Positions 37,001 through 59,800 of a stretch of 64,000 nucleotides of DNA are shown in pieces. How positions within the stretch are numbered: the stretch's first letter is position 1; every line of letters begins with the position of its first letter. A program made the position numbers and the translations under genes. The notes beneath the pieces are model-generated. The model was not told the DNA's origin. It worked only from the letters and a program-made list of their open reading frames with translations, and did no database searches. This stretch comes from Scatophagus argus (Eukaryota; Chordata; Actinopteri; Scatophagidae), in contig NC_058494.1 in assembly GCF_020382885.2 (NCBI RefSeq), forward strand, positions 26,882,329 to 26,946,328, in the 5' to 3' direction.

Positions 37001-38640
37001 ATCAGGGCCCTGGAAGCAGAAGTTCAGCTCACATTAGTGAAGGTCCTTGTTCGCTTGCATCAATCCCACAGTCAGCAGCCATTCATTTAAACCAGTAATT
37101 AAAAGTCCACTCACTGGTCCTCCGTTCACGGTGGAGTCTTCTCCTCTGTCGCCCTGAAGGTACATGGAGAACGTGTTCAGAAGATGTTAAGTGGAACTTC
37201 AGCTTGTTGCACAGAGCGTTAACCACCACTGGGGTCTTGTCTTGTATATTACACAATTTAACACACCAAGGAGATTTTGGAGCCTGGTCGCAGTGAATTT
37301 GGACAGTTTAGATTTTGACCACTTTAAGGCAGAATATGTTTTAACTCATGACTGTGGTCTTGTTGTTTCATATGCAGAAGTTAAGAAAAACAGCCTGTCC
37401 TTTTTCTCTGTGCAAACACAAAACATATTTGAGTTTGTTTTGGCAAAATTCAAGAAGTCATGGATTTATTTTCAGCCCACAGTGCAGCGTTCAATCTTTT
37501 AGTTGTAGAACGTAAAAAAATGACAAAGCAGAGCAGTTTTGACCATTAGGTACGTTAATCTGTGTGGAAGATGGTGGAACATCACCTTTTTTATTTCCAA
37601 AGGAATTATTCAAGCAGCAGCTGCTTTTTCTCCTGCTTGTGTGAAAACAATGAAAACCTGCTTCACTGAGCTGATTAATCCATAAATCAGCTGATCCACG
37701 GCTTTGACCCACATCTTACAACTGAGAAGAAACGAAACCACGACTCACATCAATGCCGTCCACTCCGGGCACGCCAGCTACTCCAGGCGGGCCCACGGGG
37801 CCTCTGGGTCCGACCGGGCCCCTCTGTAAAACAAACACAAATCTCCACTTTTACTGTTTTTTCTCGCTGAATTTCACTTCTAAAAGTCATCCAGCGCTGC
37901 TGCCGGTTGTGGTGTGAAGGGCGGCTCACACAGAGTCTCATTGTTCGGGTGATGTGAGGGGAAAGGTCACGAAACTGAACCTGGTTTCCCCTTATAGTCC
38001 AATTAAACCGCCTAAGTAACAGCATGTGTTCGGGTTACTGCTGCTGTCTGGACTTGGTGCCAGGTGTGCACACTGGACTGAATACTTTAAATTCACCCAA
38101 TTTCAACATTCACGTGCCGCAGATTGATATTCTGAATAGCTTATACAATTATACACACTGTGACCTAAAATCCAATACTAAAACTGTAAATTGAAAAGAT
38201 AATTAAAGTGCATTAAGGTAAAAGTATCTCACAATAGCACCAAACACAGGTTTCATAGGAAGCATATGTGGAAAATACATACTAAATGTACAATAAAAAA
38301 ATAAAGTTGATTCCTCACTGAGCAACACAAATAATCTAAAAATACCCGAAGAAATATTAAATATGATACCATAAAATATTACATTTAATGTATTTACGTT
38401 CAGTAATCATACAGACAACTCACATTCTCTATATATTGTAATGTCATTAAACACTATAGAGTGCACTAAGCTCCATGTGAATGCCTACAGGAATATTACA
38501 GGAATATGCTGGTGTTTCCTGTCCAGGAGGTGAAGGAGAGAAAATAAAGAGCGCCGATGTCTCACCTGAGCAGAGCAAATCAGCACGATTTGCAGTAAAA
38601 TCACCAGCAAAGGCTCTCGACAGATCCCAGAGAGAGCCAT
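24865..38640 (-). CDS. col9a1: Collagen alpha-1(IX) chain, short (NC4-less) form
   Basis: Thirty-two phase-compatible exons sum to 2064 nt, or 687 residues, close to the human short isoform. In transcript order on + coordinates: 38566-38640, 37749-37823, 37115-37153, 36947-37009, 35703-35756, 35522-35557, 35218-35241, 34822-34875, 34632-34685, 34254-34286, 33640-33696, 33464-33517, 33156-33209, 32975-33028, 32294-32347, 32155-32208, 31951-32004, 31771-31824, 31581-31634, 31453-31497, 31309-31362, 31037-31090, 30800-30853, 29268-29339, 28311-28346, 28160-28204, 27899-27931, 27409-27555, 27078-27132, 26730-26918, 25803-25880, 24865-25070. Exon 1 is a signal peptide ([18 protein letters not shown]). 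COL3, COL2 and COL1 Gly-X-Y blocks follow, separated by NC3 (CPNACP) and NC2 ([11 protein letters not shown]), then NC1 ([10 protein letters not shown]). Many exons are 54 bp, as in fibrillar-associated collagens. The product is a cartilage collagen coating type II fibrils. Confidence 0.93.
33945..34110. repeat. Long (TATC)n array at a retroelement-like 3' end
   Basis: About 165 bp of TATC units with scattered tgtc variants. It follows directly on the phrase ccctcgggatcaataaagta, which I recall as a common fish retroposon 3' end with a TATC-type tail. It lies in a col9a1 intron near the NC3 exons. Confidence 0.85.
34950..34986. mobile_element. Possible right end of an 'AACAGTTCACCC' MITE
   Basis: TTTTGGGGTGAACCGTCCCCTTAA resembles the right terminal repeat of the 44745-45000 element. 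No matching left end was recognised, so this is weak. Confidence 0.3.
36040..36165. repeat. Possible fragment of a dispersed fish retroelement
   Basis: ctgctgctccaagtgaaggag...atctca followed by a ggatggatgg tail resembles, from memory, a widespread fish LINE 3' segment. It lies in a large col9a1 intron (35757-36946). No reading frame is left. Confidence 0.35.
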
Positions 38641-39289
38641 GGTCTTCCCAGGGCCAAGGAAGACGCCAAAAGTCCCTTTTTCCCAGATTAGATGGGGCTC
38701 ACACACGGTCCACCTGTCAGTCTCCCCCCTGACTGAAACCCCACCGCCTGCTCGAAGGGGAGGATGTTAGAAAGTCCTGATTATTCATGAGATGCTGAGG
38801 CTCTGCAGGAGGAGGAGGAAGGCTTCTGTGCACAGACTGGGTGGGGTGAATGCACCTTTATTTTGAAATGAAGTTTGGTGCCTGCAAGTCCACCGCATTA
38901 AACATAACAGAAAACTATTTGATATTATCCTTTACTTGGCTTTAGGATGGACATCTTTGTTTTTGTAAAACATAATTTTGTCCTTTAAATGCTTAAAAAG
39001 TGTTAAAAGAGAAAACCGGTAAAGTTAGATGTTTTGACATAGTCATCTTTTAGGTTTATTTTTATCATTAAATATCAGCCCAACTAAAAGTACTGCATTC
39101 AAAACCTTACCAAACTAAAGTATTATTAACAAAACGTACATTTTTTCTACTGATACTTTTGTACTTTTACTTCAGTGAAAGTTTGAATGCAGGACTTTTA
39201 CTTGCAATGGAGTATTTTATACTGCGATGTTGCTGCTGTGACTTCAGTAAATGATTTTAATGGTTGTTAGTGACAAAAAGCGCTGCTTC

Positions 39290-39533
39290 CACACTCCGAC
39301 CCAATGGATGGCGCTACAACATTAGACTCCCAACCGCGAATAAGACAAGCGAAGAAGAAAAAGACCGGAAGTTCACCAACGACAAAGGCAGGCGTCCTTT
39401 TCAAAGCTCGTTAACGGCTGTTGTCTTGGTGCCGTTCACGAACCTGTAAACAACAGAGCAGGAAGACGGCTGCTATGAACCGGTGATGTTACGGTGGTGT
39501 GTGTAGTGTAGCAGCGCGGCGGCCGCAGTGCAG
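39290..39533 (+). promoter_or_regulatory. hyls1: hyls1 promoter and non-coding first exon
   Basis: ACCGGAAGT (39364-39372) is a consensus ETS site in a locally CpG-rich stretch. A clean donor (gcag|gtgaga) after 39533 suggests a non-coding first exon. It lies head-to-head with col9a1, whose start is about 0.65 kb to the left. Confidence 0.5.
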
Positions 39534-40136
39534 GTGAGACACAAGCCGTCTGCTATCAGTTAACGTTGTTTAGATTGGCTGCCTGTTGCACTGCTACAAC
39601 GTTAGCCGAGCTCGCTTCCGCTCAACTTCGCATTCGACCAAGATGTGCCAAACCCTCTTCAAAAATATGACACTTTAGGCTTGCCTGTCAACAAGTATCA
39701 TGTTAGGGTTGTTAAACCGTAGGGCTACGGTTAATACACTGGCTGCAGTTATATTCGGTGTGCACAAGGGCTAAAACTAGCTAATATCGTTGGGTTTAAA
39801 GAGCCGGCGCTCTTTTATTGGATGGCTACGTGTTTCAGCTTTCTGAGTAATCCACTTGTATTTGTCACATTTCGTATGTAGTCAGGTGTGGTAATGGCTG
39901 ACACAATTCACCAGTTGTGTACGTTTGACGGTGACGGTCAGTAAAGATGCATTAAATGTCACTTGAGTGAATGGAGTTCGCTTTGAAACAGACATCTAAT
40001 GCAGCCTGATACAGCAGCTCAGCAGTAAACCCTAACCTTCAGCTGAAACTGAAACTGTCTGTCATCTGACTCGTCTAAATCAGCCCGTAAGAACTCTTTC
40101 TACAAAGTCTCCTGTTCTGCGTTAGATTATATATTC

Positions 40137-40395
40137 AATTTAATTCAGTTCGGTTCATTTATGTAGCGCCAATTCACAACAAAAGTTATCTCATGACACT
40201 TTCCAATTAGAGCAGGTCGAGACCAAACTCTTTAATTAAACTGTAATGCAGAGAGCCCAACATTCCCCCTTGAGCGAGCACTTGGCGACAGTGGAGAGGA
40301 AAAACTGCCTTTCAGAAGGCAGAGACCTCAGAGCAGACTGCGGCTCAAGATGGGCGGCCATCTGCCTTGACCGGTTGGGTTGATAGATGTTATAT
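40137..40395. repeat. Dispersed fish repeat beside the first hyls1 coding exon
   Basis: The stretch tgtagcgccaattcacaac ... cccccttgagcgagcacttgg ... gcggccatctgccttgaccgg matches from memory a repeat found in very many copies in spiny-rayed fish genomes. It ends about 50 bp before the start codon of hyls1. Confidence 0.65.
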
Positions 40396-40446
40396 TGTGA
40401 TGTCTTTTCCTTCCTTCTGTCTCCTTGACTTGAAGCTGAAAATATA

Positions 40447-43400
40447 ATGGACAACCTGGATTTCTCTGAGGAGGAAATTCAAGAACAACTGGCGATCCTG
40501 GGCTACAAAAACATACCAAAACACAGACTGCGTGAATTCAAGAAAGGTCAGACATCCCTCCCTGATGAACACCATGTTGTTTTTCAGCCTGGTTTGTAGC
40601 TCGTTCGGGCCCTGAGATGTTTGCATTTTGCTGTCGACTTACTGGTCAACTTCGCATTGTTGTATTTTTAAAAACTCTCAAGAAAAGATTGAGGACATGG
40701 AAAAGTTCAGGGGTTCCAGCTGATCTTTGTGTAATGGCAGATCTTGATGAGCTGATCCGACATGGAGAGTGGAGCAGCCTGGCCTCACCCACTCAGATAA
40801 ACTCGTCCAAATCTCCGCCCGCCACGTCTCAGCCGAGTCCTCCTGCCTACACCAAAGAGAAAGGTCAGGCCACCTGTCTCACACTGTCCTCTGAGAAACA
40901 CAGCAGTCTAGTCAAACTGGTTAAGATTTTCTCTCCAAGAGTGTTGTGTGTTAACTGGTGATTTCTGTGTTTTTGCTCGCAGTCAGTCCACCAAGTGAAG
41001 GGTTTTTCCTACATGCTGGACCAGGGGACTCTGACAGACATGTAAGTGCTGACTGCACCACTGACACTGTGTTTGGATTCTGTACAATCTGAATATGCTG
41101 TACGCGTAAAAAGAGAAATTAAAACTGTAGAATTTGTTTGGTAGTCATTTTAGAATTTTTTTATTCTCACACACAAAAAAATAAGATTTAAAATGCAGGT
41201 ATGTTAGTCAGTTATGCTTTCATTCTAATCATTTCATTAGAAGGCCAGGAAGGCTTTCACACTCACACCATCCAGAGTGCGTTAACCCTGACCTGAACCC
41301 AGGGCCTGTAGGCTCTGCCTCTGAAGACTGGTGCTTCGCCGTTCTTCGGGTGGCTTGTTTTAAGAATCGGACGAGATAAAACTGAAGACCAAAATGTGGA
41401 CTGAACCAACAGATATGGAAACACTCACACTTTTCATGTGATTAACAGTGTGTGTGTGTGTGATTTGACGCAGGTGCTCCCCACCTGTCTGAACGGAGAC
41501 CACGGACAGCAGCAGCAGGGATGCCGAGACTCTTACGCTCAGCACTCGGTGGCCCCGAAGCTCCGGCTGCCCCCCGGGGCCCCCAGCAGGCTGCAGGTGG
41601 AGCCGGACCCCGACGACACCCTCCACCCGTCGCTCACTGACAGCTACACGTCCACTCCTGACAGCCGGGGGAGACGCTTCATCAAGAGAAAAGTCCTGAG
41701 GTCATTTTAATGAGACTTGTATCCACAGACTAGACTGACGCCAGATTTTTGGGGTTGATAGCTGGTGTAAAGGAGGAAACAAATTGTGGTGACTGATGTT
41801 ATTTATTGTGTCAATTATAATGAGGAGAATAAAAACGACACATTTCTGTTGGCAGTTCTGATAGCAGAACCCAAACGAACTCATTCATTATAAGGTCTTA
41901 AAATGTCTATGAAGGAAGACATGCAGCAGGCCAAAAGAAAAGCTGCTCTGTGACAGCTCAGACTGGAGCTTTGTACTTCATCATCTCTGCTGGAAGTCTA
42001 ACAGTAATGTTGATTTTTGTTCTTCACTCACAGGAAACATAAAGGACAGTCTCTTGTGTGCGATGAATCAGTCTACAGTGAAGACTCAGGTAACGTTGAA
42101 AATATGTTGTATGAATTTTGACATACGAAGTTTCACGTTAAGAGTTACTTTCAAATCTTTAGAAGTTCTCAAAAATATGAAAGGATAAACACAAATCCTG
42201 AGGTGTCCTGGCCGCTGAGTCCAGTTCGTCTCACAGTCCGCTTTGACTGAACACAAAGCAGTAGAGATGTGATCCCTCCGGTCACCAGTAGATGGAGCTG
42301 TGTCAGCTTCGAGAAGCAGCCCGGCAGAACCGGTGGAGGCTCCTGGAAATCATGTTAATCCTCTTAGCTCGTTCCTTAAGCCCTCACAGACCACACGCTG
42401 CACACACCTCAGCAGGACCGCAGGTCGCCAACATGTACAAGATGTACGACAGGAAGTGGGACGACGAGAGCGACGACGACAAGAACTCTCTCAACTCATC
42501 TTTTTGGTCTGATGGAGAGCGTCCTGAAGAGGAGGAGGAGGAGGAGGAGGTGGAGATTGAGCCAGTGGCCAGAGAGGAAGACTCCAAACCTGCTGTCGAT
42601 GGACAGGACTCTCAGCTGGAGACTTCAGAGGAGGAAGAGCCTGAGCTGAAAGAGGACAACATGAGCGGGGAGAGTTTGGAAGGTGGTAGTAATGACGACG
42701 GCGATGAAGAAGAAAGTCATGGCAGCAGCTGTGACAGTCCAGCACCAAGTCTGATGACCTCCGGCTACGGCACCTACAGACCAGAGGAGCAGGAGGGCGG
42801 AGACTACGTAGACGACCACACCGCAGTGGAGTTCGATCAGGACAGTCGGGGAGATCTGTCTGAGACGAGAGACAGCGAAGAGGACGATCGTTCGCTTTGC
42901 AGCTTCAGCGGGTTTGACATCAACCACACGGAGCCGGACTACGACGAGACCCGTCCGCTGAGCGTGTTACCGGACGCAGAGACTGGAGCTGAGGTGGCTG
43001 ACTGTGGAGATGAACGTCTGCATGCAGAGGTGGACGTATCGCACAGGAAAGCAGAAGAAGAAAAAGACCAAACTGACCAGGAGACATTTGAACATGAAAA
43101 TGAGACAAATGCGACTTCAGAGGACAAACAACACGTCACTGTGGTTGAAGACAAACTCACAGCGGATGAGAAGCATTTGGAAGGTGGAGGTGATGGAGCT
43201 GAAAGGGAAGAAGAAGAAGAGAATAACAAGGAGAAAGCAGAGGATCAGGACGAGTCTTCAAGCAACATCAACTTTATCGACTCCAAAGTGGATTTCAGCC
43301 GGATGACGCACAGCGACATGTGTGAGCAGTGGGAGGGGAACCTCAGACAGAACAAAATGGGTAAATGCTTCCCCGTCCCCCAGTTTGTGATGTTTATCTG

Positions 43401-45431
43401 TTCACAGTGCTGACATCAGGTCGTTAAAGGGATGAAATTCATGGATTTACTTCTGGAACCTAAATAACACCTCAGATCAAAATCTACTTTGTGTATCGAG
43501 TGTCCATCGCACATGAGGCGAATCACAGCGTCAGTAAGTCCTCTTTGAGCCTTTAATTTTACTTCTGGGCTGCGTATAAAAGGTTGCAGTCTGCAAACTC
43601 TCCACTAGATGTCGCTAAATCCTTCACACCAGACCTTTAAATCCCTCAGACAATTAAAAGACTTTACAAATAATCTCTTGATTCAAAAGACAAACCTCAA
43701 CTTGCGTGTATGACTTTTATTGTTGCTCGGTTGCTGTTCTGTTTGGGACGAGACGTGAGCGGCTGTTTGTCTCAGCGTCAGCTCTCTTATGTTTAAAACT
43801 GGTTTCATTCAGAAACCGAAATCACTCTGGGATTCATTCTGTTCCACCTCACCCAGAAGTTCATGTTATGTTCACGTTCATGCTGTTTCTGTGCAGACGC
43901 GGCGAGCTGTCTGGAGGAACGACTGGCAGAGCTTCATTTGTCCACGTCGGCTCATCGCGACTTGGAGATGGAGAACGAAGACGTGACGAGCGACAGCGAC
44001 GGCCTGAGCTCGGAGACGGGGGACATCTCCGTGAGCGCCTTCGAGTCCTACATAAGAGGCATGGTGGGTAACGTAGTCTGTCAGGGCGTGGCGGCAGACA
44101 AGCTTCCACTGTTTGTGTCTCAGGGCTGACTGAATCACTTTGCTGTCGTTTCTTTCTGGACAGACTCGAGCTCAAAGTGACGTGGACTTCAGACCCAAAC
44201 CCAAATCCTGTAAGTCATCAGCAGCTTAATGGACCAAATCATATTATTGTATTTTATGCTAAGCTGCCTTAAAATTTATCAAAAAACATATTTGTTTCAG
44301 TCATCCGACCAGTGATGAGTCAACAAACCCTTAAGAAGACGGATCCAGTTGCCAAGTAAGTTCAAAACATGAAAATTACTCTGAAGATTCACCCCAGGAT
44401 AAAATACGTGATGAGTTCTGCTCAAAGCAACTTTAACCACCAGTTACCGAAACACGATTATGATCACGATTGAGGGTTTGGTCGTCTCTGCAGGTATTTC
44501 CAGTATAAACAACTCTGGGAAATGTTCAAACTTCCAGGAGAGAAGGACCGCAGAGCTCTCCGCCTGGAGATAAAGGTGTGGAAACAGATCTTCAAAACAA
44601 AGTGTCCAAATATTGACTCTGAAGCTCCACCTGCTTGTCAGCCTAAGTAACTTCCCCACACAGTCTTCCCTCATATCATCCATGTAGCATCTGGCTTTCA
44701 GTGTCGGACATGTTAGTCCGCACCTGAAGCAGCCACGGTGACGCTTAAAGGGACAGCTCACCCCAAAATCAAAACTACATATTTTTTTGCATAGACAAGC
44801 TTGTGCTAATCAGCCTCTCATTCAGGACTCATGACTTCTGGGAAGAGATGTCGCCTGCCACACTTTTAGCACCACAAGTGAAGGCAGGCGTCTCTTTACG
44901 GCTGATACCCCCAACAGCTCCAGCACCAGAACTATCCAGACAAACAGCACTACGGGGCAGAGGAAACGTATTTTGATGTTGGGGTGAACTGTCGCTTTAA
45001 ATACGCTGAGTATAACCAGCTGGTGTTCAGTTGTTGTTTTTGTATGTTTTGCTTCAGTAAGTTTTGCTTTTTGTTTTCAGGAGCGACTTGCATACCAGCC
45101 TCCACCAGTAAGTTTTCAGATCCTCATCCTCAACATGTTCGTGTGTCAGCCAATAATCAGCCTGTTCCTGGTCCACTCAGTATTTTTCCTTCAGCCTTAA
45201 AGTCTGGACAGGAAAAAACAAAAAAAACCCCTCACTGTTGACTTGTAGACTCAGTTTTCAGAATGGCTCCACGTTAAAGTGTGGATCTGTCGTGTGTTGC
45301 AGCCTAAACCTCGGAGGGTCTACGTGCCGAACACCTACGTCGTGCCAACGGAGAAGAAGCGCTCAGCCCTCCGCTGGGAGATCAGGAACGACTTGGCCAA
45401 CGGCCTCCTACCTTACAAATTCAGCTATTGA
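40447..45431 (+). CDS. hyls1: Hydrolethalus syndrome protein 1 homologue (centriolar)
   Basis: The canonical exon chain is 40447-40546, 40741-40863, 40983-41041, 41474-41700, 42034-42089, 43897-44063, 44164-44209, 44301-44355, 44494-44575, 45081-45107 and 45303-45431, giving 1071 nt, or 356 residues (human about 299). The N-terminus is [20 protein letters not shown]. The middle carries [12 protein letters not shown] and DESVYSEDS. The C-terminus holds the HYLS box [13 protein letters not shown] and [20 protein letters not shown]. The aspartate matching human D211, mutated in hydrolethalus syndrome, is kept (codon 44342-44344). HYLS1 binds the centriole and is needed for ciliogenesis. An optional in-frame exon may lie in the 42090-43896 intron. 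AATAAA is at 45463-45468. Confidence 0.93.
42416..43360 (+). CDS. Candidate acidic cassette exon or nested ORF in hyls1
   Basis: An open frame of about 315 codons lies inside the hyls1 intron between 42089 and 43897. With acceptor ctcagcag|GA (or ctcag|CA three bases earlier) and donor ATGG|gtaaat, it is phase 1 at both ends. Insertion would therefore keep the hyls1 frame and give about 671 residues. The product is strongly acidic (poly-Glu, many Asp and Ser) and starts near [20 protein letters not shown]. It has patches such as [14 protein letters not shown] and [18 protein letters not shown] that look like conserved protein and not low-complexity filler. I do not recognise the family, and human HYLS1 has no such segment. 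It could instead be an alternative first exon (ATG 42434) or an exonised insertion. Confidence 0.55.
43430..43650. mobile_element. Probable non-autonomous transposon fragments
   Basis: ctccactagatgtcgctaaatc...accagacctttaa resembles, from memory, the tail of a very common fish non-autonomous element. TTAAAGGGATGAAATTC near 43425 may be a separate end. Pairing of the ends was not established. Confidence 0.35.
44745..45000. mobile_element. 256-bp TTAA-flanked MITE in a hyls1 intron
   Basis: Left end TTAAAGGGACAGCTCACCCC; right end, reverse-complemented, TTAAAGCGACAGTTCACCCC. The inverted repeat extends about 28 bp with a few mismatches, and TTAA stands at both borders. Related copies are at 12060, 23674 and 46395. 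The TTAA target suggests a piggyBac-type source transposase, which is not in this window. Confidence 0.82.
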
Positions 45432-45462
45432 TTTTAAGCCACATGCCTTTTCAGATACTTTT

Positions 45463-45504
45463 AATAAAACTTTGTTCTTTTTTAAATAATTTTGATTATT
45501 TATT
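45463..45504. terminator. Back-to-back poly(A) signals of hyls1 (+) and mrpl4 (-)
   Basis: AATAAA on + is at 45463-45468. The - strand AATAAA, read as TTTATT on +, is at 45499-45504. Expected cleavage points overlap, so the convergent genes should share a 3' end zone. A further + strand AATAAA is near 45524. Confidence 0.65.
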
Positions 45505-45581
45505 GTTGACATTTTGTTAAGCATAATAAACAGAAAGAAAACAGTTGTCTGGCTGCAGTCGGTGTGTGTATTACAGGTGGT

Positions 45582-48500
45582 CTACGGGAAGTCGGAGTAG
45601 GGCAGTTTGAACGGGTACAGAGGCGTGTACCGCTGGTCGTGCCACAGCAGCTTGTCTTCCAGAAACTTGACGGTTTCCAGCGTGAGGACGACGGCTTCGT
45701 GTTTCAGCAGGCTGTGGACGTTCAGACCTGACAGACAGAAGACAGAAACATCTGCTAGTGGCAGGCTGTGCACCTCAGGAGGTTTGCCAACTTAAACACT
45801 GAAGCCGTTAAATAAAAGGCTCCTCAGACAGGGTTTCTGCACGTCTTTAAAAGTCTACAAACAGTCTGACTGTAGGCCTTAAAATATCTAAAAATCGATC
45901 TGAGTCCAGGTTTATAAACACCTGAATTCCCCTTTAAGTAAAAGTTACATTAGCTTCAGTCTGACTTAAATTTGTCTCGACACCCTAACAAATCTGGAAA
46001 AGACCGATCAGTTAGAGGCGGCAGTAACTCACCGACGGCTGGAATGAGGTTGACCGTCTTCAGACTTGCTGTCGCCTGAAGGATGTTTTCAGGAAAATCT
46101 TCACCTCTGAAAGCAACGAGAACGACTTCAGCACGGAGCGAATGAAGTTGTTGTTTAAGGCGGCGGACGAGTCTTGTTGCTGATGATACTCACACGTCGA
46201 CGATCAGCAGCGACTCTCCCCAGTGTCTGTGCCTGATGAGCTCCAGCAGGTGCTGGGAGTCGGGGGTGGGGATGTTCAGCGAGTCCACGACGTGAAGGTA
46301 GGCCTGCGAAAACACGCAGCAACACGCTAACAAATCAACCACTGATGTTACTCATACGCACGCGATGATATGAAGAACATAAATGTGCAGATGGACTCCA
46401 ACAGTTCACACAAAAATGAAAACTAGCGTGTTTTCAAATCAGTTTAGGCCTTGCAGCTTATGCAGGCTGGAATTATGAATGGAGCCTTTTTACGTGGCCG
46501 TTCTTTACTTTTTAAAACAAATCTCCAGCTTGTTTAGCTGTTTAGCAGAATGCTGCAGAGATCCAGAAATGTTGTGAGGATGAAGACGCTTCATGCAACT
46601 TTTCAACTGCATGTCGGTGAGGAGATGATGACTGAATTCTCATTCTTGTGTGAACTGTTCCTTTAAACAGACACGCGTCATCAAACTGCGGTCCAGACTG
46701 ATTCCGGGTACCTGAGCCATCTTGCAGCTCAGAGCCACCTTGAGTCCTTGCACTCGGACCTTCATGGGTAACATGTAGTAGAAGCTGGTCGGCCCTCGGG
46801 GTCCGTGAATCACCCCACCTGAGAGGAACACGCCGCCGGTCAGAGGAGATCACGTGACAGAAGGGAGGCGACACGTTACGACAGGACAGACTCATAACTG
46901 AAAAACACAAGCAGCAGGCGAATGAAGACGACTAAACGCGGTCACCTCCTCTCCACAGCGGCGATCGGATGCTTCCGTGACGCGCTCTTCCACTTCCTTT
47001 CTGTCGCCACGGTTTCCTGCCTCCACCTCTGACCTCCGACCTGATCTTCGTGTTGGCGTGACTCTGACGGATGAGAGCAAACGGCAGTGAAGGGAACGTT
47101 AGCTTCAGTTAGTCTGGCGTTCTCAAACAATAAACGAACAAACAAAAAACAAATCTGCATTTCTTTTTTGTCATGTTTGTCAGATTAAATCAGGTTCAGC
47201 TGATCAGGAAGTTGTTTTTAGGTGACTTAAAAGAAGGTTGTGATGGGTGGACTAAGCGTTAACAGGCCAGAGTTCTTCACTTTTAACCCGGTTAGATCAC
47301 CATGGCAACAGACGCAGCACACCCAGCCTGGTCTGGAGTTTCCCATTCAAATCGTCCCTTTCACTAATTCTTTTCCTGGTGAAATAAATGTAATGCAGCT
47401 CAGGCAGATGAGATGCTGAACGCTAACGTACTGGCGAGCAGCGACGTGTGCATGTTGGCGTCCGCCTCACGTCTGCTGTCAACGCGGTCAGAAATGTTCT
47501 CCTTTAACAAACAAACATGTTTGTGAGTGAGTGACAGACTGCAGTAATCAGCACGGCTTCCCGAGAGAAGAACGCATGTGTTTTGTTCTGAGGTGCCGGT
47601 GCTCTGGTGCGCCATCTAGTGGCAGGGAGGGCTGTTTTACTGTTAACTTTCACCTTTCTGTCACCTTATTTGCTGAAGTAATTTGTTTATATTCCTCACA
47701 TTTCTCCATCGTGACAACCAGCTCGTCTTGACTGAGGAGACGCGATCAAAGGACGCACCAAACGCACTCAGAGCCAGAGGCAGGAAGTCTGAATTAACTA
47801 ATAAAGTCAATAACCACAGAATTTATCTGCAAAGGTGACTAAGCTGCCTCACGGTTTACCTCCCTGCAGTTCAAAATAAGATCTGATAGATACGAATGTG
47901 CTTTTTAAAGCGTATTTATGTGTTTATGTTTTCCGATGGAGGATCAACCCCGGACGTGTACACAAATCATCTCACAACCAATCATCAATCACAGCGCGAA
48001 GCCATCCGACAACATTTAGCCAACATTTAAAATGAGCGAGTCTGTGACTTACAATTCTTTTGTAGTTCCTCTGCCATACTTCAACATCATGGAGAATGTC
48101 GAGCCTGAGAGGAGAGCGAAGACACGACTCATTAACACACTTCATACAGACTTTCCTGATGCGTCTGGACTTCAGGTGAGCGTATGAGCACACGGCTCTG
48201 ACTGTTCCCACAGAACAGACGGCACACAGCTTTGGAATGAAAGAAACAACAGGATACTGGGGGAACTTGGTCCATAAACCTCAGAGCTGATAACAGCTAA
48301 TGACGACTGATGTTTGGGACAGGAAGTGAGGACGGGACTGACGCTGTCCTGTCACTTTAAACCCTGTCAAAGTATGTAATAACTTTAGAAATGTAAACTG
48401 GGCTTCACCTCGGAGGCACCGCGAAGACATCCGGGTGGAGATGAGCCAAACCCAGAGGCTCGCTGTCCTTCCTCTCCAGAGTCTCCACCCACGTCTGGAC

Positions 48501-49525
48501 GGGGCTCAGGTGAGCGGGAACGACGGCATCGCACCTCCTCAGGACAGGAAGGGAGCAGTCAGCAGGAGGAGGAGGACGCTCTGCAGGAGAAAAGTCAGCA
48601 TGAGACATCTGAGAGGAATCACTCTGCTGTGATGTGCAGGAGGTTTACATCGACGTGCAGACCGGAAACACGACAAACACACGATGAGTGAGATCTTCAA
48701 GATGAGGGACATTCTGAATGCACACAAGACGTCTTGGGGAGAAACAATATTTCATGTTTAGGCGCATAAATCAATAGACTTTAAAGACAGTGGATAACCT
48801 CAAAATCATCTGTTTACTTCACACATCACATCAGATTAATGACAGCAGCGTCATCATCATCACATTTAGTCTGCATGTCCACAAGCCGAAGGGTCTGACT
48901 CACTTAGTCTGGCAGGATCTACGAGGTTTGCGGGCAGCAGCAGATTTGGAGGCAGAATACTTTCACCAGAGAACGACGAGGCGAACTGAGGAGGAGAGAA
49001 TGGAGTTAGTGGAGCAGCTGGACGACAACATACAAGAAAAATATCTGCGGCCCCTCAGCAGCCGCTGCGAGATCTTCCGGTGTCGCATTAACTAAGCTGA
49101 ACGGGTTCGTTTTACCGGATAAATGACAGAACTGAGCACTTCTGAAAAACGTTTCATACACGATGCTAAAGTAATGTCACACCGAGTGATGACTATTGTG
49201 ATTTATTCCTTCTCATCTGAATAAAAACGTATTTTACACCTCTTACACCTCTTTCTAAAGAAAGCAGATTTCAGACTTGTCGTTCTTAGCTAAACTTTGT
49301 GAGCATTAAAGGAAAATAAACGTCAGCAGTGCAGCCAGTTACCCCAGAGCTAACTCACTTGTATTTTATGCTATACAGACACCGTCACTCTCCTTTCAGA
49401 CGCTTTGGCCAGTTGATGTTCTGACACCAAGTGCTGTACGTGCAGCTAAACATGGCTGCAGGTTAAACGTTACTCACCCTTTTAACGACTCCTCTGCCAC
49501 AAATTACCAGCGAGCAGCGAAACAT
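45582..49525 (-). CDS. mrpl4: Mitochondrial ribosomal protein L4 (uL4m)
   Basis: Nine exons in transcript order: 49478-49525, 48904-48985, 48409-48580, 48053-48104, 46946-47063, 46712-46818, 46194-46303, 46033-46106 and 45582-45727. They sum to 909 nt, or 302 residues (human about 311), with every phase consistent. Exon 1 gives [16 protein letters not shown], basic and free of acidic residues, as expected for a mitochondrial presequence. The family core follows: [60 protein letters not shown], and the end [18 protein letters not shown]. uL4m helps build the exit-tunnel side of the mitochondrial large subunit. The first two exons are the least certain, being set by splice sites and phase more than by similarity. 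Confidence 0.93.
46395..46666. mobile_element. MITE copy in an mrpl4 intron
   Basis: Left CAACAGTTCACACAAAAATG pairs with the right end, which reverse-complemented reads AACAGTTCACACAAGAATG, followed by TTAA (46663-46666). The left TTAA has decayed. It belongs to the same family as the element at 44745-45000. Confidence 0.65.
47064..48052 (-). other. Large mrpl4 intron
   Basis: Just under 1 kb between the exons coding YKRI and SHANTKIR. No nested gene or well-formed repeat was seen. Confidence 0.6.
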
Positions 49526-49639
49526 TTCTGTTCAGTTTTATTCCACAGTCAAACACGCACTTAAAGTCCTCTTAAATCACCTGAAATACACATGATACGC
49601 GGAATAGAAAAGTGTTTGCCGGATGAAAGGTCGTGCTCG

Positions 49640-49735
49640 TTATCCGTGTGGTGTGTTGGCGCGCGTTGATGACGTAACGCAACAAACGCATTAGCTACGC
49701 GACTGCGCCGTAGGAAGCGGAAGTTCCCGGGCTCT
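49640..49735 (-). promoter_or_regulatory. mrpl4: mrpl4 promoter
   Basis: TGACGTAA (49670-49677, CRE-like) and CGGAAG (49718-49723, ETS/NRF2-GABP type) lie 150-200 bp upstream of the start codon. These site types are typical of nuclear genes for mitochondrial proteins. No TATA box was seen. Confidence 0.5.
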
Positions 49736-49794
49736 TTAAAAGTAAAGCTAACAAAAAAAAAAACTTCAACAGAACTCAGATGAACCAGATATCA

Positions 49795-50805
49795 AATAAA
49801 ATGTTTATTAATGGATAAGTTAACATTTTTACATAGGTTTACTTCAGTAACCTCTTGAAAGCAGGGGTTTACAGCATGTTATTAGTACTTAAGTCTTGAT
49901 AAAGGATCTTCAGTAAACACTTCCTCCACCAGAAGTCACTGATCAATGCAATCTATTATGGACTTAAATAAATGCAAACTTGATGAAACAGTTTGTAGGT
50001 TGTCTTTCTCAATAAACTGGCACAATGTGATTTAAGAAATAAATATATATGTTTGTGTTCCTATTTTTTGTACAATATAACAACAAAATTATACATGGTG
50101 TGTCAATTGTAACCAATTTTAAAAACTTCATGGTCACATTTAAAATGGCTTAAGGCACTTTATATAGTTTGATATATATAGTAAACTTAAATATTTTTTA
50201 TGTTGAAACAAAAATCGGTCCATAAATGATACAGACTTAACAACATACTGTACATCCCCAATATAAATAAAATAAAGTGAGCATTTCAAAAGCATAAACA
50301 AACAGTATAATATGAAAATCTGCTCATTTTAAACATTCATTGGACAATATCTAATTATACAATCGTATATAAAACCATAAAAAAAACTACTTACATCCTT
50401 TGATCTTGTAATAGTACCTTAAAGTCCTCAAATTTCTTCCTCAAGTTTCATCATCAGTATTACACTGGAGAGAAAATTTGGGGATCTTGTGTGCCAACTT
50501 AGTTGTTAGGTACTTGTTTTGTTTTCAAACATGCACTGTATACTACAAACATGGTACAAAATAACAAATGTGAAAAAGCTTGAATTTACACATGATATAA
50601 GTGCAAAAATGCCACATTGTAATATAAGTTCCATCATTTCAATGTATTAAAAAAAAAAAAAAACTTAAATGAGGGCAGTAAGAGACACGTTTTAGAAACA
50701 GAAGCATTAATACAACAGCTTAAATTGGCATAAATAAACAGAATATGAAAAGCATACCAAAAGAAACACTTGGTACTTCCTACTGAAACATCAGCTGTGT
50801 GAAAC
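49795..50805 (-). other. 3' UTR of the AHNAK-like gene
   Basis: About 1 kb of AT-rich sequence between the stop codon and a - strand AATAAA (TTTATT on + at 49804-49809). The signal lies under 100 bp from the mrpl4 promoter elements, so the two same-strand genes are tightly packed. Confidence 0.6.
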
Positions 50806-53800
50806 CTACATGAGGTTGGAGAAAAAGAAAGTTGACCCTTTTAGGTCATTTTCATTTGGAACTTCAAGGTTCACATTTGTTGGATGAAAGACAGGCCGCC
50901 CCAGTGTGTTACTTTTACGAGTAGGCATTTTTTGATTTTGTGCTTGAGTGGGAAAAACAGTGACATAGTATCCATCTGTACTGTCAGGTGGTCTCACTCC
51001 TGAATCTTGAGAAAGATGTGGCAATTGCGCGTTAGATACCAGCCGCATTGTTTTCTTAGGCTTTGCATATAAGTCAGTGTCAGCAGGGGGAATTCCTCTG
51101 GTATGTCTAGGGTCCCTCATGCCAATATCAAAACCTGATGGGGAGAGCACCAGTCCGTTGTTATGTAACGTCTGGAGATCCAGTGTCGAACCTCTGGATC
51201 TAAGCACATGATCCTTTCCTGTGAAATCATCAATATTGAGATCTGAGCGACTGAAGTCAATATGGTGGCTTAAATGAGCATCTGCCAGAGGGTAACTTGA
51301 CCTTACTTTGCTGCTATGAGACTTTCTGTCAGTCTGACGAAGTCTGACATCCCTATCTACATCCAGGACAGGCATCTTCATGTTAACCATTGGGATATCT
51401 GATCTACGATTCTTATAGGAAGGTCCCTTGTAATTTAGTGAAGGATTATCAATGTTGAGATCTGGATTTTTGAGATGCAACTTTGGATTCTGCATCGATG
51501 CTTTTGGCATGCCAAAGTCCATGTTTGGAACACTAACATCTTCACCTCTGATGTAACCCTTTAACTGTGGTGATTTCATGTTCGGTTTTGCATTTGGAGG
51601 AGAAATATCTAGATTTGTTGGTCTCAAAGAAGCACCAAAATCAATATCACTCCCTGTCCTATAAAGATCCGAGCCTCCAAACTGAGGCAACTTGAAAGAA
51701 GGGAATTTGAACTTTCTGTCTGCCAAATCAAAATCAGTCTGAGGACCCTGGATGTTTCCTGAGGGAACATTCATGTCAAATTGTGGATCTCTTATTCCTC
51801 CTTTGACTTGAGGGGCAATAAAGGTCATGTCAGATCGTCCTATGTTACCATTTATTCCTAAATCAGGGCGTTTTGCATTGAGGTCTAGCTTGGCACCTTG
51901 AAACTTTGCATCTGGCATACTTATATCAGAACCTTTCAATTTACGTCCTGAAAGATTAATTTCTGTTTCTGCCTTAGGTCCAGAGAGACTGAGGTCTGGT
52001 GCATTTAAACTTGGCATTTTTAATTTTCCTTTGGGGCCATTAACATCTACATGTGGGATATTCAGTTCACGCGTGTTGAAGTCCCCATTTATGTCAACAC
52101 TGGGGCCTTTGGGCATCTTTATTTTGGGCTTTTTGATCTTTGCATCAGGGAAACCAACAGTCACATCTGAAGTGTTCATGTCTAACTTGGGAGCTTTAAG
52201 GTCTGTGTTTGGTAAGTCCATCCTGGGGGCATCGATTCCACCTTTCATCTTTGGAGCTTTGAGATTCAGATCTGGAGTTTTCAGGTCTGAATTAATGTGC
52301 AAATTTGGTCCTTTTGGTAATTTGGCATTAATATCTGTTGACTTGAAATCAAAGTCTGGACTAGAAAACCCCACATCAGGCATTTTAAAAAGTGGCTTTT
52401 TTAGTTTTCCCGATGAGCTGCCAAAATCAACATCTGGCATTTCAAAGCCAGGTTTGGACCCTTTAAGGTTGATGTTGGGTGCACTGATGTCAATGTCTGG
52501 GCCATCAAAATTCCCATCAATATCAGGTCCTTTTAGATTTGGTAGACTAACTTTAGGCATTTTCAGTTTTGGCATTTTCATCTTCGCTTTGGGTGAACCA
52601 ACGTTGACATCCGGAGTATTCACATCTAATCTGGGAGCTTTAAGGTCCATATTAGGCAAGTGAGGCTCAGGGACATCAATTCCACCCTTTATCTTTGGTG
52701 CTTTCACAGTCAAATCTGGTGAATTCAAATCTGCATCCATGTCCATGTTTGGCCCTTTTGGTAATGTACCTGAAAGATTGAAATTAGGAAATTTCAATTT
52801 ACCAGAGGGAGCTTTAACATCCAAGTCTGGAGCATGAAACTCTCCCTTTGGTTTTGCCAGTGTTGGCATTTTCAGTTTACCAGATGGCATGTCTAAGTTG
52901 AGCTTTGGGGTACTCAGGTCCAGTTTGGGGCTTTTAAGGTCAGCCTTTGGCATGTTTATATCTGGTGCCTTTATTCCACCGCTGAGTTTGGGACCAGAGA
53001 TATCTAGGTCAGGGGATTTAAGGTCCAAGCTAGGGCCATCTAACTTTGGACCAGAAAGGCCAAAATCTGGCAGGTTAAAATTTGGCTTTTTGAATTTTCC
53101 CGAGGGACCAGCCACATGAACATCTAAGTCAGCTTTAGGACCATTCAGGTTGATGTTTGGTGCATTTAAATCAACATCTGGCCCATCAATTTCAGGTCCT
53201 TTTAAGCTTGGCATGCTAAATTTAGGCATTTTCAATTTTGGTACTTTCAGCTTTGCTTTGGGTGAACCAATGTTGACATCTGGAGTGTCCATGTCTAATT
53301 TGGGAGCTTTAAGGTGCATATTAGGCAAGTCCATGTCAGGGACATCAATTCCACCCTTTATATGTGGATTTTTCAGCTTTAGGTCTGGTGATTTCAGATC
53401 TGTGTTAATGTCCATGTTGGGTCCTTTTGGTAATGTACCTGAAAGATTGAAATTAGGAAATTTCAATTTGCCCGAGGGAGCATTAACATCCCAGTCTGGA
53501 GCATGAAGTTCTGGCATTTTCATTTTACCTGATAGCATGTCTAAATTGAGCTTTGGAGTACTGAGGTCTAGTTTGGGACTTTTGAGATCAACCTTGGGCA
53601 TGTTTATGTCTGGTGCATTTATACCACCCCCAAGGTTAGGACCAGTGACATTTAGGTCAGGTGATTTGAGGTCAAGGTCAGGACCATCTAACTTTGGACC
53701 AGTAAGGCCAAAATCAGGCAGGTTGAACTTTGGCTTTTTGAATTTTCCAGATGGACCAGAAATATCAGCATCTGGCATTTCTAAATTAGCCCTGGGACCT

Positions 53801-56800
53801 TTAAGATTGACATTGGGTACATTTACATCAACATCTGGGCCATCTAAGTTTCCATCAAACTCAGGTCCTTTTAGGCTTGGAAGATTAAATTTAGGCAACT
53901 TGAATTTGGGCATTTTAAATTTTGCCTTGGGTGAACCAATGTTGACATCTGGAGTATCCACATTAAACTTGGGAGCCTTAAGGTCCATGTTGGGCAAGTC
54001 CAAGTCAGGAGCATCAATTCCACCCTTTATCTCTGGAGCTTTCAGACTCAAATCAGGTGACTTAAGATCCGCGTCCAGGTCCAAATTTGGTCCTTTTGGT
54101 AATGTACCTGAGAGGTTGAATTTGGGCAATTTCAATTTGCCTGAGGGAGCATTAACATCCCAGTCTGGAGTATGAAGTTCTGGCATTTTTAGTTTGCCTG
54201 ATGGCATGTCTAAGTCAAGCTTTGGGGTTCTGAAGTCTAGTTTGGGACTTTTGAGGTCAACCTTTGGCATATTTATGTCTGGTGCATTTATACCACCCCC
54301 AAGGTTAGGACCAGTGACATCTAGGTCAGGTGATTTGAGGTCAAGATCAGGGCCATCTAACTTTGGACCAGTAAGGCCAAAATCAGGCAGGTTGAACTTT
54401 GGCTTTTTGAATTTTCCAGATGGACCAGAAATATCAGCATCTGGCATTTCTAAATTAGCTCTGGGACCTTTAAGATTGACATTGGGTACATTTACATCAA
54501 CATCTGGGGCATCTAAGTTTCCATCAAACTCAGGTCCTTTTAGGCTTGGAAGATTAAATTTAGGCAACTTAAATTTGGGCATTTTAAATTTTGCCTTGGG
54601 TGAGCCAATGTTGACATCTGGAGTATCCACATTAAACTTGGGAGCTTTAAGGTCCATGTTCGGCAAGTCCAAGTCAGGAGCATCAATTCCACCCTTTATT
54701 TCAGGAGCTTTCACACTCAAATCAGGTGACTTAAGATCTGCGTCCAGGTCCAAATTTGGTCCTTTTGGTAATGTACCTGAAAGATTGAATTTGGGTAATT
54801 TCAATTTGCCTGTGGGAGCATTAACATCCCAGTCTGGAGCATGAAGTTCTGGCATTTTCATTTTACCTGATGGCATGTCTAAATTGAGCTTTGGAGTACT
54901 GAGGTCCAGTTTGGGACTTTTGAGATCAACCTTGGGCATGTTTATGTCTGGTGCATTTATACCACCCCCAAGGTTAGGACCAGTGACATTTAGGTCAGGT
55001 GATTTGAGGTCAAGGTCAGGACCATCTAACTTTGGACCAGTAAGGCCAAAATCAGGCAGGTTGAACTTTGGCTTTTTGAATTTTCCAGATGGACCAGAAA
55101 TATCAGCCTCTGGCATTTCTAAATTAGCCCTGGGACCTTTAAGATTGACATTGGGTACATTTACATCAACATCTGGGCCATCTAAGTTTCCATCAAACTC
55201 AGGTCCTTTTAGGCTTGGAAGATTAAATTTAGGCAACTTGAATTTGGGCATTTTAAATTTTGCCTTGGGTGAACCAATGTTGACATCTGGAGTATCCACA
55301 TTAAACTTGGGAGCCTTAAGGTCCATGTTGGGCAAGTCCAAATCAGGGACATCAATTCCACCCTTTATTTCTGGAGCTTTCAAACTCAAATCAGGTGACT
55401 TAAGATCCGCGTCCAGGTCCAAATTTGGTCCTTTTGGTGAAATGCCTGAGAAGTTGAAATTGGGCAATTTCAATTTGCCTGAGGGGCCATTAACATCCCA
55501 GTCTGGAGCATGAAGTTCTGGCATTTTCAGTTTACCTGATGGCATGTCAAAGTCAAGCTTTGGGGTTCTGGGGTCTAGTTTGGGATTTTTAAGATCAATC
55601 TTTGGCATGTTTACATCTGTGTTTATGCCAGCACCTAGACTGGGACCAGAGATATCTAGGGCGGGTGATTTAAGGTCCAGGTCAGGGCCATCTAACTTTG
55701 GACTAGAAAGCCCTAAGTTAGGCAGGTTCAAGTTTGACTTTTTGAATTTTCCCGATAGCCCAGTAATATCAGCGTCTGGCAATTCTAAATCAGCTTTAGG
55801 GTCTTTGAAACTGACATTGGATGCACTGATGCCCATGTCAGGACCATCAAAACTGCCATCAATCTCAGGTCCTTTTAGGCTTGTAAGACCAAATTTTGGC
55901 ATCTTTAATTTGGGCATCTTTAAATTTGCTCCGGGTGACCCAATGTTGACATTTGGAACGTCCACATCTAACTTTGGTGATTTAAGATCCATGTTTGGTA
56001 AGTCAAACTCAGGGGCATCAATTCTACCCCTTGTCTTTGGAGCTTTAAGACTTAAATCTGGGGATTTTAGATCTGTGCTTATGTCCATGTTTGGTCCCTT
56101 TGGCAATGTACCGGAAAGGTTATATTTAGGCATTTTAAATTTGCTTGAGGGAGTGTCAACATGCATGCCAGGAGCATCAGGAACGGAAAGATCTAGTTTG
56201 GGTTTATTAAGGTTCATCTCGGGCAAACTTAAATCTAGGGATCCTATCGCCCCCTTAAATTTGGGGGCTGAAAGATCAAACTCTGGAACATCTGGAGAGT
56301 GGAGGTCTAAATTTGGAGTGCTGAGATGTTTAGACATGTTTGGCACACTCACATCAGGAGCATCAATGCCTTGTATCCTTGAGGATTTCAATGTTAGTTC
56401 AGGTGTTGTCATCCCTTCATTGACAGTCACATCCTTTTTCTTTGGTAATGTGCCAAAGAGCTTAAATTTTGGCAGCTTCAGCTTGCCAGAGGGAGCATCA
56501 GCATCAATGTCCAGTTTACCAGAGGGCATACTAATATCCACATCAGGGGTATTAAGGTCTAACTTTGGGTCTTTGAGATCAACACCAGGCAAACTGATGC
56601 CCCCTTTTAACTTGGGAGAAGATACATCCATGTCTGGAGTTTTCAACTCGTATTCAGGGCCTTTAGCTTTAGGTCCAGACAGCCCAAAGCCTGGCATTTT
56701 GAGCCTCCCAGATGGGCTTGCAATATCTAAGTCATTTGAGGGTAAACTTAAATCAAAATTTGGTTCTGCAATTTCAGCTTTGAGACCTGATGCTGCCACC

Positions 56801-59800
56801 TGCAGATCTGATCCTGCTAAATCTCCATTAAAATCTGGAACTTGAATTTCTGGTAACTTGAAATTGGGCATAGCAAACTTAGGAGCCTTGTACTTTCCGG
56901 TTGGACTTTTAATGTTAACCGAAGGAGTATCAATGGTTAAATTTGGTCCTTTTAGAGCAGCTTTGGGTAGATGTGTTTCAGGAGGACGAATTCCACCTTT
57001 TATCTTTGATGCATTGAGACTTAGGTCAGGAGTTTTAACATGAGCTTCACCATTGCCTGAGACCCCAAACTTTGGAAGAGTGAATTTATCAGATGGAGAA
57101 TCCACATGCAAATCTGGAGATTTAAGATCAATTTTTGATTTCTTAAGCGGCATTTTCACTTCCCCAGAAGGCATGTCAATGACCGGTCCAACACCTGACA
57201 TTTCTAGGTCTAAATCTGGGGATTTCCCAGAAAGACTGAGCTTCGGTAATTCTGCATAACTTGAAGGGTCATCCACATTTAGATCTGGCTTTTTTAGTTT
57301 CTTGGAATACTTGAGACTGAGTTTACCAGAGGGAACATCTGGGGTTCCTATATCTGTTGTCTTGACCTCATATCCTGGACCACTAGAAGAAGGTCCAGAG
57401 GGCCCCATGTCTGGCAAGTTGACTTTGGGCATTTTTAGATCTGGCAATGTTCCAAGATCATTTGGCAATGTCAAGTCAACTGATGGACCATCAGTGTTTG
57501 GCACCTGTATACCACCTGTGTTGACATTTGGACCCTCAGGTAATGTTCCAGAAATATGGAACTCTGGAGCATTAAACTGTGGATTTCTAGTATCGGTTTC
57601 CAGTCTTGGTACCTGAGCTCCAATTAGAGCAGTCCCCATCGAGCTGAGACCCATTGGTGGAAGGTTCAGATTGCTGCTATATGCTAATCCTCCAGGATCA
57701 TCAGACTGGGAATCATCATTAACTTTTGTGCTCAAAGTCTTCGTTTTTAAACGCCCAAAGTCAACTCCGAGGCGAGGCAAGCTCATGTCGTGTTTTCGGG
57801 TGACCTTGGACGAGGTTGGCACAGTTGGCTTGATGGTAACCTCCCCATCCATAGGGCTCTCATCACTGAGAGAGTCACTTTTCATAAACTTCTTGATTTT
57901 GTTATTGTAGAGTTTGCTGTAGGAATCCTTCAGCATCTAGAAATGTAAACCACAACATGGTGAATGTACTTACATTGCAGTTTTAGCAATTTTAGCATTG
58001 TTTCCATGACAACAGTTGAACATTGAAGGGTACACACACACACACACACAAAGTGTGAGTTTACAGATTACAGATTACAACCAACTGATACAACCCATCT
58101 CACCCTCTCTTATGGTGGTTACTAAAATGTTAAAAACACCAAAAAAAAAAAAAAGAAAGAAAAGAAAATATCTTGCTTGCTATGCTTAGTTGAACATCAC
58201 AACATTTCAAAAAATGTGCAGCATTGTGGACCATTGCTGCATGAGAATACAAGAAACTAATTCATTAATTGTGTTTGACTTGATAATATCTGTATTCCAC
58301 CTACTGTCTCAAGACTGTTGGTGCACTGGTCCAGATTTCCAACGCTCTTGCTCCGGTTGTTCTTTGTGAGGACTTGGATCTTGTCGTTATATGGCTCCAT
58401 CAGCTTCAGTACTTGTAACACCTCCTCTTTGGAAAGTTGATCAAAGTTGATTGTTGCCCCCAAAATTTCATCCCCTGAAAAAGAAAAAAGTCAAGTGTTT
58501 GCAAAAAACAGTAATTTCCAGATGACTGAAATGTTTTCATCTGGGAAAATCCTACTATTTCATAAAGAGAAAACTTATACTGAAAACCTAATCCAATGGC
58601 AGTGAGTTTTATTTAAATGAATCACAATATGGAATTTTGAGAGTTTTTGAAAGGAATGCCATGCTGTATGTCAAACACAATTTGTAAATATCCATTTACA
58701 CAGAGAGACTAACAAATATGCAATCCGATACAACAGCACTGTATTGAACAGCACATTTATGAACCATTTAATTTTAACACGGTAGTTGTTTTACCTTCCC
58801 TCAGTCCCTGACTGGCTGAGGCGGTGTTGCTGATGCTGGATACGACCAGAGCCCCCTCGTCTGATCGCTCCAGGGTCAAGGCATCGGACAGACTCCTTCC
58901 CCTGCGGTGTTTCGGCTGCAAGCCAAGACATTTCATTAAATGGTTAAAAGAGAAGCACGCATCAACAGGAGGAGCTTTTAAAGGCATCATGCAACAGAAT
59001 TTTAACTATTAACATGTTAACAATATGTGGGTGTTTCGTACCATGATCCTTATGTTTCTGTCACAGTGGCACTGAAAAATCCCTTTTTCACTAAACCTAT
59101 AGATGAAAACAAAATGTTCAGTAAACACATTCAGCTGTTATGGGAACATGATACAGAGCAGTTCTTAGTGCACATGAAACATAACATGCAGCTTTTAGAT
59201 AGTGTCACATATTAAAGCTTGTTAAAAAAAAAAAAAAACGTCAATAAAACAGATGAAGCAGAAGGATCCAGCAAACAGCTCTGATCATACGAGCGGGTTA
59301 AACTACTGAGAAAATGTTACGTTTACATTAATTTAAGGGTGCTTTATGCAGCGTATTAAGTTGAGTTGATTTAGATAAACATTATGTATGTATGCAATTG
59401 TCATACGAGTGCTGAGAGACAAGTTCATTTACTGAACTTTCACAGCATTAATGTAATGCATTAATGGCAGTTACAGGAGTGACACCCAGGTTAGCACTGC
59501 AGGTGCATCACTCAGGTATGCGAGTTATGGCGTCTGAGCTCTGTGGCTCCAACTGAGGAAAAGTGGGAACAGGTTTATCGAGAGTTCTGCGAATAAGTGT
59601 TCTGTTGTTGGGTGTTTCCTTTCTGTAAGCACACAATGTCAGCAGTAACCACACCCACCACTCTGCAGCACAGGAATCCTGGCAGAACAGTGAATCCAGA
59701 CACACCAAGTTCTGTCCACATCATGTGACATGATGAGCAAAGATGAGCTGAATGAATGAAACCGTTTGCTCTGCGTCACCATCTAACTGCAGTTTATGCA

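Follow-up and report, generated by a model that had tools for sequence, protein, structure and literature searches.

Symmetric cassette exons, with phase 1 on both sides and NAGNAG tandem acceptors, are a known exon type. A coding unit inside an intron has been described for hyls1 itself, in Drosophila, where PMC7253586 places the gene chiffon in a hyls1 intron, describes one chiffon isoform as sharing an exon with a portion of exon 2 of hyls1 and, in a supplementary legend, assigns the two genes a common promoter. The host protein, HYLS1, is a ciliopathy protein that, according to PMC10960023, promotes the assembly of centriole triplets in human cells. In the same paper, residues 151-299 of human HYLS1 are reported to suffice for the formation of incomplete-microtubule superstructures in human cells, a role in trapping the tail of the beta-tubulin TUBB is suggested for residue D211, and the authors propose a repulsion of polyglutamylated tails (PMC10960023).

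Within a window of 64,000 nucleotides of the fish Scatophagus argus (contig 2, positions 26882329-26946328; the whole stretch of DNA that was analysed), we found that intron 5 of hyls1 contains a coding stretch for acidic residues that can be compared with both systems. It is like a NAGNAG cassette in having a length divisible by three, the same phase on both sides and a CAGCAG acceptor, but at 945 bases it is very long for one, almost the size of the remaining protein. Its likeness to chiffon is that of a coding unit within a hyls1 intron; however, chiffon is a Dbf4 orthologue of 1,695 residues lying between hyls1 exons 1 and 2 (PMC7253586), whereas the fish stretch encodes 309 acidic residues in intron 5 and matches nothing in Pfam at E up to 10. 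Chiffon is a precedent showing that hyls1 is able to host a further coding unit, with no homology implied.

The host gene was modelled from 11 joined coding exons on the + strand (40447-45431; Table 1), which by spliced translation give a protein of 356 residues. The HYLS1_C domain (PF15311), encoded by exons 6-11 (43897-45431), is matched in this form over its entire profile (positions 1-90 of 90, residues 261-346, E 1.6e-39). The fish 356-residue form is like HYLS1 in having a complete C-terminal domain, and the exons bearing that domain are also present downstream in both longer predicted forms. To our knowledge, human HYLS1 is without any such acidic segment. The human protein also differs in length, with 299 residues in the numbering used in PMC10960023 versus 356 and a predicted 671 in the fish forms. 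Spliced translation reproduced the coordinates of the junction 42089/43897, which is in phase 1, as an earlier note on this DNA had claimed. Splice sites were scored with a hand-entered matrix and ranked within 41000-45999 (304 GT and 406 AG sites), and on this scale the ten hyls1 donors, with one exception, lie between 6.84 and 9.03. The donor of exon 4 at 41700 is poor (GAG/GTCATT in the frame-consistent model) and is absent among the best 45 of the 304 GT sites, the 45th of which scores 3.41; exon 4 may have a different edge. The CpG ratio is 0.99 at 39250-39749, close to where the hyls1 promoter probably lies.

Table 1. Features of the hyls1 locus, in positions of the window
Feature	Coordinates	Strand	Basis or remark
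hyls1 coding exons 1-5	40447-40546, 40741-40863, 40983-41041, 41474-41700, 42034-42089	+	spliced translation
hyls1 coding exons 6-11	43897-44063, 44164-44209, 44301-44355, 44494-44575, 45081-45107, 45303-45431	+	spliced translation
Host intron 5	42090-43896	+	phase 1; donor 42089 score 7.86, acceptor 43897 score 9.30
Better-scoring acceptor, first exon base	42390	+	score 7.90, rank 9 of 406 AG sites in 41000-45999
Tandem acceptor CAGCAG, first exon base 42413 or 42416	42413-42416	+	both in frame with exon 5
Candidate start codon ATG, context GCCAAC-ATG-T	42433-42435	+	start of the putative 477-residue form
Acidic coding stretch	42433-43359	+	309 residues; shuffles, translation, codon choice, rhythm, own-genome search
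Phase-1 donor AATGG/GTAAAT	43360-43361	+	score 4.81; coding signal seems to end here

Several other genes share the window. Tail to tail with hyls1 lie pieces (45590-49560, - strand) of what we take, by eye, to be a mitochondrial ribosomal protein L4-like gene. Repeats make up one uninterrupted open frame of 2376 codons at 50809-57936 on the - strand, which presumably, again by eye, is AHNAK- or periaxin-like. Pfam further identified a glutamine-synthetase-domain frame at 8204-9427 (- strand, E 3.8e-57), which we assume to be lengsin-like, and, at 3852-5834 (+ strand, E 3.3e-5), the last part of a SACK1 (FAM83-type) gene.

Inside intron 5, and on the strand of hyls1, we found an open frame of 373 codons (42292-43410), and frames of at least 373 codons appeared in none of 1000 dinucleotide-shuffled introns (mean 103.8, maximum 237). 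It could be argued that a purine-rich, non-coding stretch is here free of stops by chance, given that runs of GAG and GAA and the paucity of T lower the number of stops, but shuffling 42413-43413 by itself gave a longest frame of 233 codons in 2000 tries, versus 332 observed. Because a T-poor stretch is easily without stops, we added two tests independent of stops, one of codon choice and one of three-base rhythm, and both are contrary to a non-coding origin. The synonymous codon choice of the acidic stretch, at +41.6 bits, is like that of the window's genes, and 500 random synonymous recodings of the same stretch gave -44.8 bits (sd 12.1, maximum -8.6); the reference consisted of gene pieces, namely the hyls1 model, the glutamine-synthetase-domain frame and the FAM83-like frame, and the contrast was the base composition of nearby non-coding DNA. 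The three-base rhythm, taken by thirds of the stretch, reaches 10.80, 5.33 and 8.28; it is 0.71 in the part of the intron upstream of it (42090-42412) and lies between 2.01 and 3.54 in the four hyls1 exons that were measured. Shuffles, codon choice and rhythm together rule out a chance open frame; the non-coding explanation is largely refuted, and we give it hardly any credence. We can say with good confidence that the acidic stretch in the hyls1 intron is coding.

What this coding stretch belongs to was judged from its two edges. In our view the best explanation, with a somewhat better than even chance of being right, is that it belongs to the hyls1 transcription unit, as a protein-coding exon whose right end is joined to exon 6. 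Inclusion of the 945 bases 42416-43360 indeed keeps the hyls1 frame, as had been claimed, and extends the spliced translation from 356 to 671 residues with no stop before that of hyls1; moreover, the acceptors 42413 and 42416 and the donor 43360 all have the phase attributed to them. Of the exon proposed in the earlier note, the coding stretch is well supported, the phase-1 donor edge at 43360 is supported by the end of the rhythm there, and a cassette that can be skipped is a possible reading of it.

At the right edge, the rhythm drops from 8.28 in 43049-43359 to 0.22 in 43361-43896, and the 17 codons beyond the donor have an intron-like share of purines by codon position (0.35/0.41/0.35, versus 0.73/0.69/0.52 inside). 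Since the coding signal appears to stop at 43360 and not at the stop codon 43411-43413, splicing to exon 6 is favoured over a gene that ends at 43413; the tail compared, from the donor to the stop codon at 43411, is only 51 bases long and gives support rather than proof. The same two observations tell against a small independent gene lying within the intron, equipped with a promoter and 3' end of its own and no part of HYLS1, which would begin at ATG 42433 and either run unspliced to the stop codon (326 residues) or be spliced to exons that were not found. Such a gene, the main rival to the exon and possible although we would sooner doubt it, would nevertheless fit the unremarkable score of the donor 43360 and an ATTAAA at 43653 that is followed, by eye, by a T- and GT-rich stretch and could end a short transcript. 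The donor is an ordinary one, ranking 23rd of the 304 GT sites in 41000-45999, and six GT sites in the same intron outscore it (43189, 43754, 42993, 43183, 43533 and 42549), four of which fall within the acidic frame. Its phase 1 fits exon 6, and reading on across that junction meets no stop before the one of hyls1.

At the left edge, two features compete. The acceptor at 42416 scores 5.20 (rank 29 of the 406 AG sites in 41000-45999) and that at 42413 scores 1.23 (rank 105). Eight hyls1 acceptors were scored, all but 40741 and 40983, and 42416 exceeds three of them (41474, 4.34; 45303, 4.43; 44301, -2.92). Entry from exon 5 at the better-scoring acceptor 42390 puts the acidic frame out, and the region is then read in a frame with stops. 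The right phase occurs at six of the 17 AG sites in 42292-42457 (42314, 42317, 42320, 42368, 42413 and 42416); phase agreement alone has about a one-in-three chance and is weak evidence for an exon. The candidate start codon, on the other side, is well placed, 17 bases past 42416 and right where the acidic sequence begins. Its good context, and a coding signal that extends from about there onward, also favour the nested gene, against which stand the absence of TATAAA, TATAAG and TATATA in 42090-42432 and CpG ratios upstream that are not island-like (0.79 in 42000-42499 and 0.56 in 42250-42749). For the preferred reading, an exon joined to hyls1 exon 6, the left edge is explained equally by an internal start at ATG 42433 and by the cassette acceptors 42413/42416, and we regard the two as about equally open.

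We hypothesise that the right end, spliced at 43360 to exon 6 (43897), would yield a product made of a long acidic, probably disordered segment and the C-terminal half of HYLS1. If the segment is entered by splicing from exon 5 into 42413 or 42416, as a cassette, the protein would have 671 residues. If it is entered at the internal start, spliced translation predicts 477 residues, in which the acidic part would replace the normal N-terminus ahead of the C-terminal half. In either case we infer that the stretch would be transcribed, spliced and translated.

Searches for relatives of the acidic stretch found none in the collections covered. Its 315 residues matched no Pfam family at E up to 10 (PF15311 spans the C-terminus of HYLS1 only, and this null is uninformative for the other parts of HYLS1) and no PDB chain at E up to 10; a known domain or a solved relative was accordingly rejected as far as Pfam and PDB reach. 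None of 13 pattern matches in viral contigs and none of 81 in prokaryote genomes was confirmed as a relative, and neither collection is of fish, so these results say little; the stretch may well be known already among fish proteins. Searches of the fish's own genome (570.7 Mb in 48 contigs) with the whole acidic protein found only the stretch itself (15 of 15 candidates scored), and with its DNA found itself and 14 short matches, all confined to the surroundings of the GAG run (query bases 99-157). With no second copy in its own genome as DNA or as protein, a recent retrocopy or mobile element was discarded; flanking direct repeats of at least 12 bases were absent around the stretch, a threshold at which shorter target-site repeats would be missed. 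A structured RNA was likewise discarded, as 38000-50000 has no Rfam match at gathering score. In the literature, no title on such a hyls1 exon was found among the matches listed.

The lack of a relative in Pfam, PDB, viral contigs, prokaryote genomes and the own genome would suit a decaying exon or gene remnant that was coding until recently and has since lost its splicing-in, as would a weak acceptor at 42413, a moderate one at 42416 and an ordinary donor at 43360. Yet the 373-codon frame is still open and its synonymous choice still gene-like, and we consider such a remnant unlikely. There is, moreover, a weak in-frame similarity at the DNA level between 42621-42714 and 43113-43218, with repeat pairs 492-504 bases apart. 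When the halves of the stretch were compared, their score was reached by five of 300 codon shuffles for DNA and by 669 of 1000 shuffles for protein. The stretch is perhaps the product of an old internal duplication, of which there is a weak sign in the DNA and none in the protein.

Glutamate and aspartate make up 33% of the 309 residues and serine 10%. The computed pI of 4.05 equals the floor of the program, and the real value may be lower; net charge lies between -4 and -13 in all 19 overlapping 30-residue segments measured across the stretch. Together with 19 CK2-like sites, this composition suggests a segment that is disordered, strongly charged and possibly phosphorylated. In the exon reading, it would precede the C-terminal half of HYLS1, corresponding to the human part that handles the beta-tubulin tail, and we hypothesise that it could tune tubulin binding, for example by competing with or repelling the negatively charged tubulin tails. 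A bolder and quite improbable extension is that in some fishes one gene yields two HYLS1 proteins, and that the acidic exon mimics a polyglutamylated-like tubulin tail and so restrains the HYLS1 box. If this were true, the choice of splicing or promoter would control the ease with which centriole triplets or the basal bodies of sperm are built.

If the stretch is instead a nested gene, fish hyls1 would host a second coding unit, as PMC7253586 describes for Drosophila. If, on the other hand, the stretch is an exon joined to hyls1 exon 6 and the isoform is real, it would provide a ready-made test of the effect of charge near the HYLS1 box on tubulin handling, and it would illustrate how a conserved gene can acquire a large orphan coding segment.
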